From the IMG/VR virus record IMGVR_UViG_3300030329_000317, positions 1 through 31,445 of that record: a stretch of DNA of 31,445 nt; one strand, given 5' to 3'. Made by a program: the position numbers and the translations under genes. The DNA is from a virus. The notes under the pieces are model-generated. The model saw nothing but the letters and a program-made list of their open reading frames with translations, was not told where the DNA came from and made no database searches. Shown in pieces: positions 3,261 through 31,047 of this stretch (within the stretch, counting starts at the first letter, position 1; every line of letters starts with the position of its first letter).

Positions 3261-3580
3261 TGAGTTACAAAGCCGGGCCAGAGCTTGGAATGATTGAAGT
3301 TCATACAACAGACAATGGTGGACACTCAATAGAATTTTGGGCGGATTTATGTGTAAAAAAAATAGTTGCTGTTAGTGAGGATGCACCACAAGACATTAAG
3401 GATCAAGTAAAAACTTATCAAGACAACATCCAAAAAGTTATTGAAGTATATATGCAAAACGCTATAAAATCTGATAGGATTACAATTAACAATAAATTAG
3501 AACAAGCAGGTTTGAAAGAAGCTGCTGATTTAATTAGGAAAAACTATGGCAATAACATCAACTCTAACGACAAGCTTTAA
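3254..3580 (+). CDS. Conserved small phage protein, 108 aa, unknown function
   Basis: A 108-residue protein with a short beta-rich start (PELGMIEVHTTDNGGHSIEFWADLCVKKIVAVSED) and two helices containing APQDIKDQVKTYQDNIQKVIEVYMQNAI. It is similar in pattern to a small conserved protein next to tail genes in many marine phages. The ATG at 3254 overlaps the previous gene by 7 bases and is 8 bases after AGGAGAG (3239-3245). The in-frame ATG at 3260 is too far from that site. The C-terminal 12 residues overlap the next gene in another frame. No enzyme motif is visible; a chaperone or small structural role is possible but unproven. Confidence 0.6.
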   Translation: MVMSYKAGPELGMIEVHTTDNGGHSIEFWADLCVKKIVAVSEDAPQDIKDQVKTYQDNIQKVIEVYMQNAIKSDRITINNKLEQAGLKEAADLIRKNYGNNINSNDKL

Positions 3581-25500: not shown

Positions 25501-26489
25501 ATCCTTATGATTACTTAAAAAGACCTGGAGTTAGATTAATACAAGAAATAGAAAATGGTAACAGAGATGAAGAAAGTTTAATGAAAATATCTAGAGATTC
25601 CTTTCTCGGCTCTCTTCAAGAAATGTTTCAAAGTTTTGCAGAACCTGCTTTCTCTGCTCAAGCTGTAATCGAAGCTGCAAATGGAGAAACTTCTACTGGT
25701 AGAAAAGTTTGGGGCGAATCAGACACTGCAGGAGATAAAATGGCTAAAGGATTTTATCATGTTATTGACACCATACTACCGACTGCAACTCCATTTAATC
25801 TTGAATTTGATAGAACATCTAAGCTGCCACTTGGAATAGGAGTTGAAACTCTACAAATGAAAGGTTTCCCCAGAGCTGTAATTGGAAGCACAGGAGGAAA
25901 AGGTGAGGATAAAAAAATATTAAACAGAAGCGGTAAAGAAATAGATGTGGCAGAGACATTAGTTCAAGCTTTCAGTGGCATTAAGGTAGTAAAACCACAA
26001 CTGGATTTAACTTTAAGATACAGAGGATTTGAGGCCAATGATGCCATAAGAGATTCAACTAATGAATTTAATAGAATATTGAGAACAACTGATGCTTTAT
26101 CAGCAGATCAAATATTGCAAGGTTTTCTTAATCAAAATGAGTCTAGATTTAATGTATTAAGAGATTTATATACAGCAATAGATGATGCTAGAACTCTAGG
26201 ATTATCTAATTCACAAATCGAAGAGCAACTAAAAATAGCTAAAGTAGCTAATTATAAAGAAGTTATGAGAGGAAGATTCAAACCCATAGAACCTAGCTTT
26301 GATTTAATTCAAGCAGCAAGAGCTGGTGCTTTTGGTACACCTCAACCTGTAGATACTAGCACAATCACAGTAGCACAAAGAAATTTGAGGCAAGACTTAG
26401 AAGGAAGATTTATAACTCCTGATGCCAGAAGAAGAGCTTTACAAGTTCTTAGAGAAGAAGAAGAAAGAAAACTAACAGGCTCACCTTAG
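22581..26489 (+). CDS. Very large internal virion / ejection protein, 1302 aa
   Basis: A 1302-residue protein, the largest in the window and the last of the late operon. The N terminus (MPFLTFEDGSQTFIPDEKPETIAKAKEAYRLSKKG) is a small conserved domain followed by largely helical sequence. A glycine/alanine-rich, moderately hydrophobic stretch occurs at about 95-135 (YLVQFGLPGFGAAGVLART). Others are at about 190-215 and 915-940 (VVGATATTASIPTALLAIGSTL), consistent with membrane-interacting helices. I see no lysozyme or transglycosylase signature. Length, helix content and position fit large ejected proteins that build a conduit for DNA entry, comparable in role to T7 gp16. The stop TAG overlaps that of the opposite-strand RusA gene. 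Confidence 0.62.
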   Translation: MPFLTFEDGSQTFIPDEKPETIAKAKEAYRLSKKGDASVLGDIGLQTIRGLQKIGEGAATTITSGIDYFADTNLTQDVKRFYERTDVGEAKTTAGEVTRYLVQFGLPGFGAAGVLARTGKVNRFGQAVGAGVVDGAVATDDVVTLKDTFLDTESESDEARLARLNGAEAASERLKEKFEVALEGGAFVFGLPLAIKAVGKTVGAGVDLMSPVGSFIAKLGSSKTKPGEISQFAFEADSKQSKGILRDLFKEENFKFYGDSPDELVGQAKFAKTNMIRAVQDRVDSSFNSVENIIQKTVDTGSVNQSTALSLSRNIEDYLFPRVKIDYQQPNLTRGQKLQEAKRLQEEALNNIKNLEKKYINYESVGLNYNNGISETLKANKELFETYSKQILDISDESSTGFMNLFLPDDLRNTIAKNVGTYGTRAYKAYIDKGFKVDPNFQKTAIEELKLITGNENEARAIFNELLNPGPKNKVGTPYEVNEVLLEGLKIDKGILKGKTLDDLPAVRRALGETAGYLQGDWRTALKNTQITATTTAKRQASLVGKYKMFDEIKKLDELSPITGGAKFLKTEAEALKTGKQIDQNTIQIFNEAGESMILKKFTGDNAGSLDGMYASSKTYNALLGAASDIAAESNAINRAYASLLAVKAGSQYGKTVLSPGAQVRNFTSIPFFSLLNGNVGSTGRFADAVANSFAGILDPKKRVIRKDVIQELTEEGMIQGGGAQLGETLELAKLATDNLKWARGVAKISDTAPIKFLEKTYRMTDDTGRVFNYLNEKERFKIAISNSLDASVPIESAKNITRFANIIQASPRTGAVVKPKDIIENYGEEALERFIKSESAEITANTVQNYQRVVPIVSQIIRRLPIGNFVAFPSEIIRNTFNAYSRGVKELLSDNKQIQKIGMRRVVGATATTASIPTALLAIGSTLTGVDNEKVDAYKRSFAAPWDRTATLIPIASDKDGNPTQFFNFSYMNPYDYLKRPGVRLIQEIENGNRDEESLMKISRDSFLGSLQEMFQSFAEPAFSAQAVIEAANGETSTGRKVWGESDTAGDKMAKGFYHVIDTILPTATPFNLEFDRTSKLPLGIGVETLQMKGFPRAVIGSTGGKGEDKKILNRSGKEIDVAETLVQAFSGIKVVKPQLDLTLRYRGFEANDAIRDSTNEFNRILRTTDALSADQILQGFLNQNESRFNVLRDLYTAIDDARTLGLSNSQIEEQLKIAKVANYKEVMRGRFKPIEPSFDLIQAARAGAFGTPQPVDTSTITVAQRNLRQDLEGRFITPDARRRALQVLREEEERKLTGSP

Positions 26490-29843: not shown

Positions 29844-30131
29844 TTAGTGAATCGTTTTACCTTTCTCTAACTCTGATAAGAACTCTTCTATGTTAGATGG
29901 ATCTTTAACAAAGTTATCGTAAACGATTGATGATATTAGTTTGACTGCATCTTCTGGATCATGTGAAAACTTAAACGCAGTTAAGATAGCAAACCTGGTT
30001 AATGTTATTACTGCAGCTTTAGTATCTAAGTCTTGTCGAGACCAGTCATCTAAACATATTTCCATGTCTTGCATTACTCTGTCGCAAGTATCTTTATCAA
30101 GCAAGTCTTTTGTCATCTTGTTTTTTTTCAT
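29844..30131 (-). CDS. Small helical protein, 95 aa, unknown function
   Basis: A 95-residue protein, mostly helical: KDLLDKDTCDRVMQDMEICLDDWSRQDLDTKAAVITLTRFAILTAFKFSHDPEDAVKLISSIVYDNFV. It overlaps the upstream gene by 35 bases and ends 2 bases before the helicase start. ATG at 30131 has only a weak ribosome binding site; an alternative ATG lies 15 bases further in (MTKDLLDKDTC). No motif is recognised. It could be a helicase-associated factor by position only. Confidence 0.55.
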   Translation of the reverse strand: MKKNKMTKDLLDKDTCDRVMQDMEICLDDWSRQDLDTKAAVITLTRFAILTAFKFSHDPEDAVKLISSIVYDNFVKDPSNIEEFLSELEKGKTIH

Positions 30132-30282
30132 TGTTTACATCTACATTTAATAATGTAAGTTTAGCATTATGCATAGACTTGCCTAGCTTGGGTGGTAGTT
30201 TACTAATCGTTGTATCCACAGAGTTAACTAGATCTGTCATTGCATATATCAAAGCGTTAGCTTCTCTCTTATCTATATTCAT
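30097..30282 (-). CDS. Small early protein, 61 aa, preceded by structured leader
   Basis: Starting at the ATG at 30282 (GGAG 7 bases upstream on the minus strand) gives 61 residues: MNIDKREANALIYAMTDLVNSVDTTISKLPPKLGKSMHNAKLTLLN then a charged tail. An upstream TTG at 30294 would add four residues but is not favoured. The sequence is helical. It overlaps the downstream gene by 35 bases in another frame. It lies right after the 67-base leader that contains the pseudoknot/attenuator, so its expression may be controlled there. Function unknown. Confidence 0.58.
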   Translation of the reverse strand: MNIDKREANALIYAMTDLVNSVDTTISKLPPKLGKSMHNAKLTLLNVDVNNEKKQDDKRLA

Positions 30283-30292
30283 ATTTTTCTCC

Positions 30293-30331
30293 AAAAAAAT
30301 AGTGAGGTGTTTTGGGGCTTAACCACACCTC
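30293..30331 (-). terminator. Alternative reading: intrinsic terminator/attenuator
   Basis: The GAGGTGT/ACACCTC stem (14-nt loop) is followed by ACTA and then seven T at 30299-30293 on the minus strand. This could be a partial terminator inside the early operon. It cannot coexist with stem 1 of the adjacent hairpin except as a pseudoknot, so stem choice could switch readthrough. The stem is short, so strength is doubtful. Confidence 0.4.
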
Positions 30332-30340
30332 AAGGTTAAG
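30304..30340 (-). promoter_or_regulatory. Candidate H-type pseudoknot in the leader of a small early gene
   Basis: On the minus strand two perfect 7-bp stems interlock. Stem 1 pairs CTTAACC (30334-30340) with GGTTAAG (30318-30324). Stem 2 pairs GAGGTGT (30325-30331) with ACACCTC (30304-30310). GAGGTGT lies in the loop of stem 1 and is directly adjacent to its 3' arm, leaving a 2-nt first loop (TT) and a 7-nt second loop (CCCCAAA). This is the geometry of a compact H-type pseudoknot. It begins 9 bases after the upstream gene stop and precedes GGAG and the ATG at 30282. Function (ligand sensing, protein binding, translational control) is not known. Confidence 0.5.
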
Positions 30341-30349
30341 ACGGAGATA

Positions 30350-30550
30350 TCAACCCCACTCTTCTCTCCCGGAAATAATTTCTTCTATTTCAGTTTTGAG
30401 ATTATCTCCAAGCCTATCAATTATTTTACATAGACCATCTTTGATTGTGTCATGAACACCAAGGGCTTTTATTTCGCCCTTGATGTCTCCTGACAGACGA
30501 TTAACTATGGCATTATAACCGTCATATGTGGGATAACGACTAGCCATCAT
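30350..30550 (-). CDS. Small early protein, 66 aa, unknown function
   Basis: A 66-residue protein: an N-terminal RYPTYDGYNAIVNRLSGDIKGEIKALGVHDTIKDGLCKII followed by DRLGDNLKTEIEEIISGREEWG, helical and amphipathic. The ATG at 30550 overlaps the stop of the DUF669-like gene (ATGA); an ATG three bases later is equally possible. No family recognised. It sits between an ssDNA-binding-like protein and a structured leader, so a small accessory of the replication module is a reasonable but unsupported guess. Confidence 0.6.
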   Translation of the reverse strand: MMASRYPTYDGYNAIVNRLSGDIKGEIKALGVHDTIKDGLCKIIDRLGDNLKTEIEEIISGREEWG

Positions 30551-31047
30551 TTATCCCAATCAAAGTCATCCTCATCGTTGGATGATTCAGACTGATCTGT
30601 ATTCTTACTTGCAACTGGCTTGCTATCACCAGGAATAAATGTGCCAATAACATTTTTATCAGCCCACTTAGTGCCATCGCCTTTGTCTTCGCCAACTTTG
30701 ACACGCAGTGTTGCAAGAAAAGGTACGTTCATCATTTCTTCTAGTTGCTCAATGCCAAAAGCTTCTACATCTGGATCCATGCCCATGGCTTTTCTCCAGT
30801 TACGCAGTTGACTTTTGGATACATTGAGGCCATTGCCCTCTAGCATATAGTTTTGCCAAACTTTTCTGCCTTGGTACTTAGGTCCGACAACATCATAAGT
30901 AACATTAATCATCTTATGACCTTGTTCCCGGGATTTTTTAGCTTCCCATGTGGTGGCCACCATTTCATAATCGCCACCGGGCATCACATCTATACCAGTG
31001 TCGTCTTCGACATCGGTTAGATTTAAATTAAATATATCTTCCGCCAT
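30547..31047 (-). CDS. DUF669-like phage protein, probable ssDNA-binding
   Basis: A 166-residue protein. Typical DUF669 phrases are GIDVMPGGDYEMVATTWEAKKSREQGHKMINVTYDVVGPKYQGRKVWQNYML and SKSQLRNWRKAMGM, followed by an OB-like strand NVPFLATLRVKVGEDKGDGTKW. The C-terminal 18 residues are very acidic (SSNDEDDFDWDK), as in SSB and T7 gp2.5, where the tail contacts partner proteins. A strong site (AAAGGAG on the minus strand, 31054-31060) precedes the ATG, 3 bases from the upstream stop. Its place next to a RecA-like ATPase supports a role in DNA recombination or replication. Binding is inferred. Confidence 0.72.
   Translation of the reverse strand: MAEDIFNLNLTDVEDDTGIDVMPGGDYEMVATTWEAKKSREQGHKMINVTYDVVGPKYQGRKVWQNYMLEGNGLNVSKSQLRNWRKAMGMDPDVEAFGIEQLEEMMNVPFLATLRVKVGEDKGDGTKWADKNVIGTFIPGDSKPVASKNTDQSESSNDEDDFDWDK

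Follow-up and report, generated by a model that had tools for sequence, protein, structure and literature searches.

The closest described parallel to the RNA leader analysed here is the T4 gene 32 operator, where gp32 binding starts at a pseudoknot and from there extends across an unstructured ribosome binding site (RBS) (PMC535899, PMC3014915). Ribosomal protein S1 likewise binds H-type pseudoknots and sequences near RBSs, enhancing translation (PMC7708055). The tisB standby site, to which this protein binds, is a further H-type pseudoknot; it is located 5' of its RBS and comes with a single-stranded stretch (PMC7708055). Compact H-type pseudoknots are known, too, from riboswitches of the preQ1-I, SAM-II and SAM-V type. 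In HK620, the DUF669 gene neighbours sak4, and its product is an SSB whose acidic tail is required (PMC5928155).

We analysed a 31.4-kb virus record (the window, meaning the whole stretch of 31,445 nt; 36% G+C) and examined a leader in its early operon that precedes g61, a gene for a 61-aa protein. As in the gene 32 operators of T4, T2 and RB69, an H-type pseudoknot lies directly 5' of an AU-rich, little-structured RBS, within a phage replication/recombination transcript. The gene 32-type arrangement of a pseudoknot 5' of an unstructured RBS is thus found, with the RBS here lying in a weak AU hairpin. The loops of the T2 gene 32 pseudoknot are 1 and 7 nt long, a pattern similar to that of this leader. 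Both kinds of pseudoknot are absent from some relatives (RB49 for gene 32, five lineages here). There is no sequence relation between the two, and the T4 operator precedes the SSB gene that it regulates, whereas this leader precedes g61 and the SSB-like gene stands two genes upstream. The Shine-Dalgarno (SD) sequence lies in a hairpin of a U-run and an A-run, in place of the UUAAA repeats of gene 32. The pseudoknot-to-AUG distance is ~20 nt against ~45 in RB69, and, unlike the gene 32 operator, the pseudoknot occurs in tandem copies in one lineage.

The other parallels are looser. The tisB pseudoknot acts ~100 nt 5' of a sequestered RBS, whereas the pseudoknot described here is adjacent to the RBS and the SD lies in a loop. 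The leader shares size, topology and an A-rich loop L3 with the compact riboswitches but differs in having plain Watson-Crick stems of covarying sequence before a non-metabolic gene, and no Rfam family matches it at either gathering or permissive thresholds. A riboswitch was rejected for want of a conserved core and of a metabolic gene. The locus offers a covariation-supported pseudoknot leader, on the general plan of gene 32, in uncultured marine phages. Even where a phage operon is tightly packed, a short intergenic gap can contain a genuine RNA element that is absent from Rfam, and the natural variation of the leader (one to three copies, or a hairpin instead) makes its role testable by comparison.

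The leader and its operon

The plus strand of the window carries the structural genes and the minus strand the early operon. The two operons converge at 26486-26489 with their ends overlapping, which leaves no space for terminators between them. The early genes around the leader are as follows.

31425-31048, minus strand: Sak4-like ATPase, cut by the window end
30547..31047, minus strand: DUF669 protein, SSB-like (Pfam DUF669 1.4e-11; weak PHROG SSB hits)
stop at 30352-30350, minus strand: 66-aa ORF (g66), between the DUF669 gene and the leader
30349-30283, minus strand: leader gap of 67 nt, between the 66-aa ORF and g61
30097..30282, minus strand: g61, 61-aa protein with conserved MxIDxREA...AKLTLLNV

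Downstream of g61 come, in order, a 95-aa ORF (g95), the helicase, a 77-aa ORF, a Cas4-like exonuclease and a RusA-like resolvase. The initial annotation had described the leader as the sole gap of this operon and was right to do so, since all other minus-strand operon junctions in the window overlap or abut. A search with g61 gave no credible Pfam or PHROG match, and the leader holds no credible sigma-70 promoter site. The 66-aa ORF contains a separate 11-bp hairpin in its coding sequence (30456-30487, minus strand; ACATCAAGGGC/GCCCTTGGTGT), and its counterpart in L020 is a perfect hairpin of 12 bp (ACATCAAGGGTG...CACCCTTGATGT). Three relatives (L079, L117 and L126) carry an extra ORF of ~278-293 aa (MNPYKIEGPALISFSGGRTSAYML...) between g95 and the helicase, putatively a PAPS-reductase/PP-loop family protein by the look of its sequence.

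The leader is built as follows, from 5' to 3'.

30354..30358, minus strand: possible third stem S3, TGGGG, pairing with CCCCA of L3 (30317-30313); window clade only, low confidence
30343..30348, minus strand: possible anti-SD ATCTCC, pairing with GGAGA (30292-30288) in the nested minimum-energy fold (MFE); window clade only
30334..30340, minus strand: 5' arm of stem S1, CTTAACC, pairing with 30318-30324
30332..30333, minus strand: loop L1, TT, conserved in the alignments; T30332 can also pair with A30303
30325..30331, minus strand: 5' arm of stem S2, GAGGTGT, pairing with 30304-30310
0 nt, minus strand: loop L2
30318..30324, minus strand: 3' arm of S1, GGTTAAG, inside the S2 loop with no gap to the S2 5' arm
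30311..30317, minus strand: loop L3, CCCCAAA; its A-rich 3' end is kept in most lineages (CCTAAA, TCGAAA, CCGAAA)
30304..30310, minus strand: 3' arm of S2, ACACCTC; S2 has 8 bp if T30332-A30303 is counted
30293-30299, minus strand: T7, the U-run
30289..30292, minus strand: SD sequence GGAG of g61, invariant across all g61 leaders
30282-30280, minus strand: start codon ATG of g61

Both the two perfect 7-bp stems, interlocking with loops of 2, 0 and 7 nt, and the T7 run followed by GGAG and ATG stand where they were first annotated. The pseudoknot lies ~3 nt or less from the U-run, which leads into GGAG and an A-run, so that the RNA 3' of the pseudoknot reads U7-GGAG-AAAAAU-AUG in the window. 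ATCTCC is kept in L001, L008 and L009, yet it is unused in their MFE. The S3 counterpart in L009 is TAGGGCTT/AAGCCCTA, and S3 appears in the nested MFE of L008 and L009. S3 would compete with the pseudoknot, and S3 together with S1 would exclude S2 and could form a switch; as the anti-SD and S3 pairings come from few sequences, we do not rely upon them.

When the window was searched for H-type pseudoknots (each stem at least 6 bp, at least 12 Watson-Crick pairs in all), only that of the leader came up. Among dinucleotide-shuffled windows, 10% hold a pseudoknot as good (15 pairs) and 55% hold one with 12 pairs. With equally good pseudoknots in a tenth of the shuffles, the sequence of the window does not by itself prove the pseudoknot. 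The nested fold of the leader is not unusually stable (z -1.3). Before any pseudoknot loop penalty, the stacking sum of S1 and S2 is -20 to -25 kcal/mol against -6 to -11 for the nested MFE, and two-stem stacking beats the best nested fold by 10-17 kcal/mol.

Homologous leaders and compensatory changes

IMG/VR was scanned with the DUF669 protein, three helicases and a g61 alignment. The scans returned more than 200 uncultured-phage loci, many of which share a contig with others and most of which keep the gene order; the region 5' of g61 was inspected in every one. The leader is always followed by g61. The operon has no DNA match in named phages, nor do g66 and g61 match there; the helicase relatives in named phages all fall below 60% identity, and GTDB genomes yielded only distant helicases and no host. 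The structural proteins match those of Pelagibacter, Roseobacter and other aquatic phages at less than 41% identity.

The pseudoknot is present in four lineages of uncultured marine phages: A (the window, L001, L008, L009), B (L057, L061, L062, L075, L078, L104), C (L063, L180, L181, L344) and D (L065, L083, L087). The geometry 7-(2)-7-(0)-7-(7/8) recurs in all four, and in L057, L078 and L065 it is the same or nearly the same as in the window (7/2/7/0/7/7). The lineages share the TT of L1, an S2 frame TTGARRxxx...YYTCA and a mostly A-rich L3, while the stem sequences differ.

S1 variants: CTTAACC/GGTTAAG, AGTGTCT/AGGCATT, AATGTCT/AGGCATT, CAACC/GGTTG, AGCAACT/AGTTGTT
S2 variants: GAGGTGT/ACACCTC, GAAGTGT/ACACTTC, GAAGTGC/GCACTTC, GAAATCC/GGGTTTC, GAAGCGC/GCGCTTC

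The covariation sets are small, with 8-9 sequences each. In a first alignment of nine leaders, 95.5% of cells pair and changes on both sides occur in 6/7 pairs of S1 and 4/8 of S2; sliding the partner by 1-3 columns reduces pairing to 33-41%. A second, gap-poor alignment gives 95.8% paired cells, both-side changes in 6/7 pairs of S1 and 5/8 of S2, and 26-47% pairing after slides. The covariation score was reached in 0/500 shuffles, a count that is not an independent probability as the sequences are related. Taking S2 as given, p for S1 is 0.0004 in the window lineage, 0.004-0.01 in L057/L078, 0.019 in L063 and 0.004 in L065, with a range over lineages of 0.0004-0.027. In L001 and L009, S1 has one mismatch, which leaves 5 bp and the outer pair. 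The lineages being few, the covariation represents about three to five independent histories. It had been proposed that a lack of conserved pairing among homologous leaders, or covariation in one stem only, would speak against the structure; both stems covary. Judged from these comparisons, the H-type pseudoknot is very probably real, with both of its stems maintained by compensatory change.

About half of the related lineages do without it. Five other lineages have a plain, unrelated hairpin at the leader site, so the pseudoknot is not essential to the leader's job. The hairpins of L020/L021 and L046/L049 are long (11-13 bp, -15 to -21 kcal/mol, a 2-nt gap, U6-8), that of L050 is looser, and the L022-L048 clade has a short GGGAAT/ATTCCC hairpin whose stem reaches only -5 kcal/mol. 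L224-L239 have a 5-6 bp hairpin ~5 nt from U5, or no stem that we could find. Loci without g61 (L082, L116-L131 and others) show neither hairpin nor U-run, and a pattern scan of IMG/VR detected no pseudoknot outside the g61 context; its matches there to a stem end followed by U7 and GGAG lacked the pseudoknot and were set aside as chance. In trees of the helicase and of the DUF669 protein, the window clade groups beside L020 and apart from lineages B-D, which, with the distribution of pseudoknot and hairpin, implies that the leader was swapped or lost more than once.

That some stable structure nearly always occupies the leader site, while its sequence changes between lineages, would suit a stability or processing element, a 5' structure shielding the g61-helicase mRNA after cleavage upstream. 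The strict distance to the SD and the joint loss with g61 suggest instead a role at the g61 start, and we regard shielding as very unlikely.

Terminator-like stems, the U-run and the ribosome binding site

The same survey bears on transcription attenuation, in which S2 and the U-run would form an intrinsic terminator and so reduce how strongly the helicase, nuclease and RusA genes that follow the SSB gene are expressed, with S1, or S1 and S3 in the window clade, modulating it. In nearly all lineages only 1-3 nt separate the end of a stem from U6-8, as in intrinsic terminator attenuators; the long stems of L020/L021 and L046/L049 are examples. In most of the plain-hairpin lineages and in several pseudoknot lineages, the stem with its U6-8 resembles an intrinsic terminator. 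A place after the SSB gene would fit control of stoichiometry, and in the window clade S1+S3 cannot form together with S2. The terminator shape is uneven, however: a GC-rich stem stands directly before ~7-8 U in L020, L046, L063, L065 and L083, is weak in the L022 clade (-5 kcal/mol) and is missing from L224-L239, where the gap is 5 nt or there is no stem and the run is only U5. A terminator also needs no covarying S1. A terminator scan did not flag the leader, partly since its loop limit was 8.

Further pseudoknot copies were sought with a covariance model. Lineage B has tandem copies, two in L057, L062, L078 and L104 and three in L061 and L075. Both stems persist in the upstream copies at 6-7 bp each, among them a compensated S2 (GAAGCGC/GCGCTTC). 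The U-run and SD are found only at the last copy. Copies without a U-run are hard to explain as terminators and easy to explain if the pseudoknot is a recognised object. The upstream copies may also be decaying remnants of a duplication, as copy 1 has a shortened S2.

The U-run itself has a second context. In every lineage it runs directly into GGAG and then an A-run. Folding predicts an SD hairpin here, one that the initial annotation did not mention, for almost every g61 leader lineage and likewise for the gene that opens the operon.

30282..30301, minus strand: SD hairpin UAUUUUU[UUGGAG]AAAAAUA (loop in brackets); the U-run is the 5' arm, GGAG lies in the loop and the last base of the 3' arm is the A of the start codon
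relatives: L022 UCUUUU[UUGGAG]AAAAGA; L020 AUUUUUU[UUGGAG]AAAAAAU; L224 AUAUAUUU[UUGGAG]AAAUGUAU; L232 AUGUAUUU[UUGGAG]AAAUAUAU

Changes on both sides occur in 3/7 pairs of this hairpin, which is weak, AU only and of low complexity. Its shuffle p is mostly 0.01-0.03 per leader, but these values are driven by the U- and A-runs themselves and the evidence is therefore moderate. In the window clade, TATTTTTTTGGAGAAAA also precedes the first gene of the operon, soon after the promoter, with no hairpin before it. Since its flanks covary with the A-run and it recurs at the first gene, where no hairpin precedes it, the U-run makes more sense as a component of the ribosome binding site than as the tract of a terminator. 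The initial reading of the U-run as a terminator mark was thus weakened by the first-gene U-run, the stem survey, the tandem copies and the flank covariation. The leader also differs from attenuators in the conservation of its second, interlocking stem and in a U-run that merges into the SD hairpin. With several lineages of textbook terminator shape, attenuation stays the main rival, a real possibility that we nonetheless consider improbable on balance.

The region 5' of the early promoter, outside the window, has a structure of its own in L020, L023, L057, L083 and others. There, a long inverted repeat, for example GATGCGCTTC...GAAGCGCATC or GTGACACRCTTT...AAAGTGTGTCA, surrounds both AAGGAGGA and another repeat further inside. 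Its shape is kept while its sequence varies between lineages, and it may be a small RNA or an operator in the divergent promoter region.

A proposed translational operator

We lean slightly towards a translational rather than a transcriptional role for the leader. More specifically, we put at about even the case that it is a cis-acting RNA element controlling g61 translation, by analogy with the T4 gene 32 operator. The pseudoknot would be the recognition site for an RNA-binding protein that, once bound, may cover or free the neighbouring RBS, be it single-stranded or folded into the weak AU hairpin. Initiation at g61 would be controlled in this way, and gene overlaps may extend the control to the helicase genes that follow. 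Of the functions first suggested for the leader, that of a protein-binding element, acting on translation, has thus gained ground, a plain attenuator has become less favoured, and nothing like the ligand-binding core of a riboswitch was found.

The likeliest ligand would be the SSB-like DUF669 protein of the phage itself, whose gene stands two genes upstream, with the g61 protein and host ribosomal protein S1 next. The DUF669 gene lies beside the Sak4-like gene and its product ends in an invariant acidic DxFDWDK; the parallel with the HK620 SSB in neighbour and tail makes it our first, if tentative, candidate. A PDB sequence search with this protein returned nothing useful, and an AlphaFold2 model built for a fold search was discarded as too poor (pLDDT 51). 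It is a more speculative thought that these phages are a second, unrelated lineage using a pseudoknot as an SSB landing site that tunes translation of replication/recombination genes, the tandem pseudoknots (up to three) being a cooperative array.

S1 protein features in a different proposal, in which pseudoknot and U-run act as a tisB-like translation enhancer that binds it and loads the 30S subunit. Its known binding to H-type pseudoknots and to sequences near RBSs (PMC7708055) and a U-run that is invariant while the pseudoknot is optional across lineages agree with such a role. In most leaders, however, the SD is strong and nearly open, so little help would be needed, and enhancement leaves unexplained why g61 alone carries the pseudoknot; we judge it unlikely.

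A different set of pairings occurs in relatives between the DUF669 gene and g61/g95 (L082 ~3286-3420, L116 1460-1590, L050 1558-1690, L030 3376-3505) and is absent from the window. Three pairings, a (TTTCATCGCAGA/TCTGTGATGAGA), b (CAGGTC/GACCTG) and c (CGAGyGAGTAGC/GCTACTCCTCG), interlock as a-b-a'-c-b'-c', that is, as two hairpins with a possible loop-loop kiss. They have no Rfam match. Of their cells 95% pair, and 8 pairs in a and c show changes on both sides; b is invariant, so that the kiss is conjectural. The pairings lie inside an intact 68-aa ORF and are also present where that ORF is broken.
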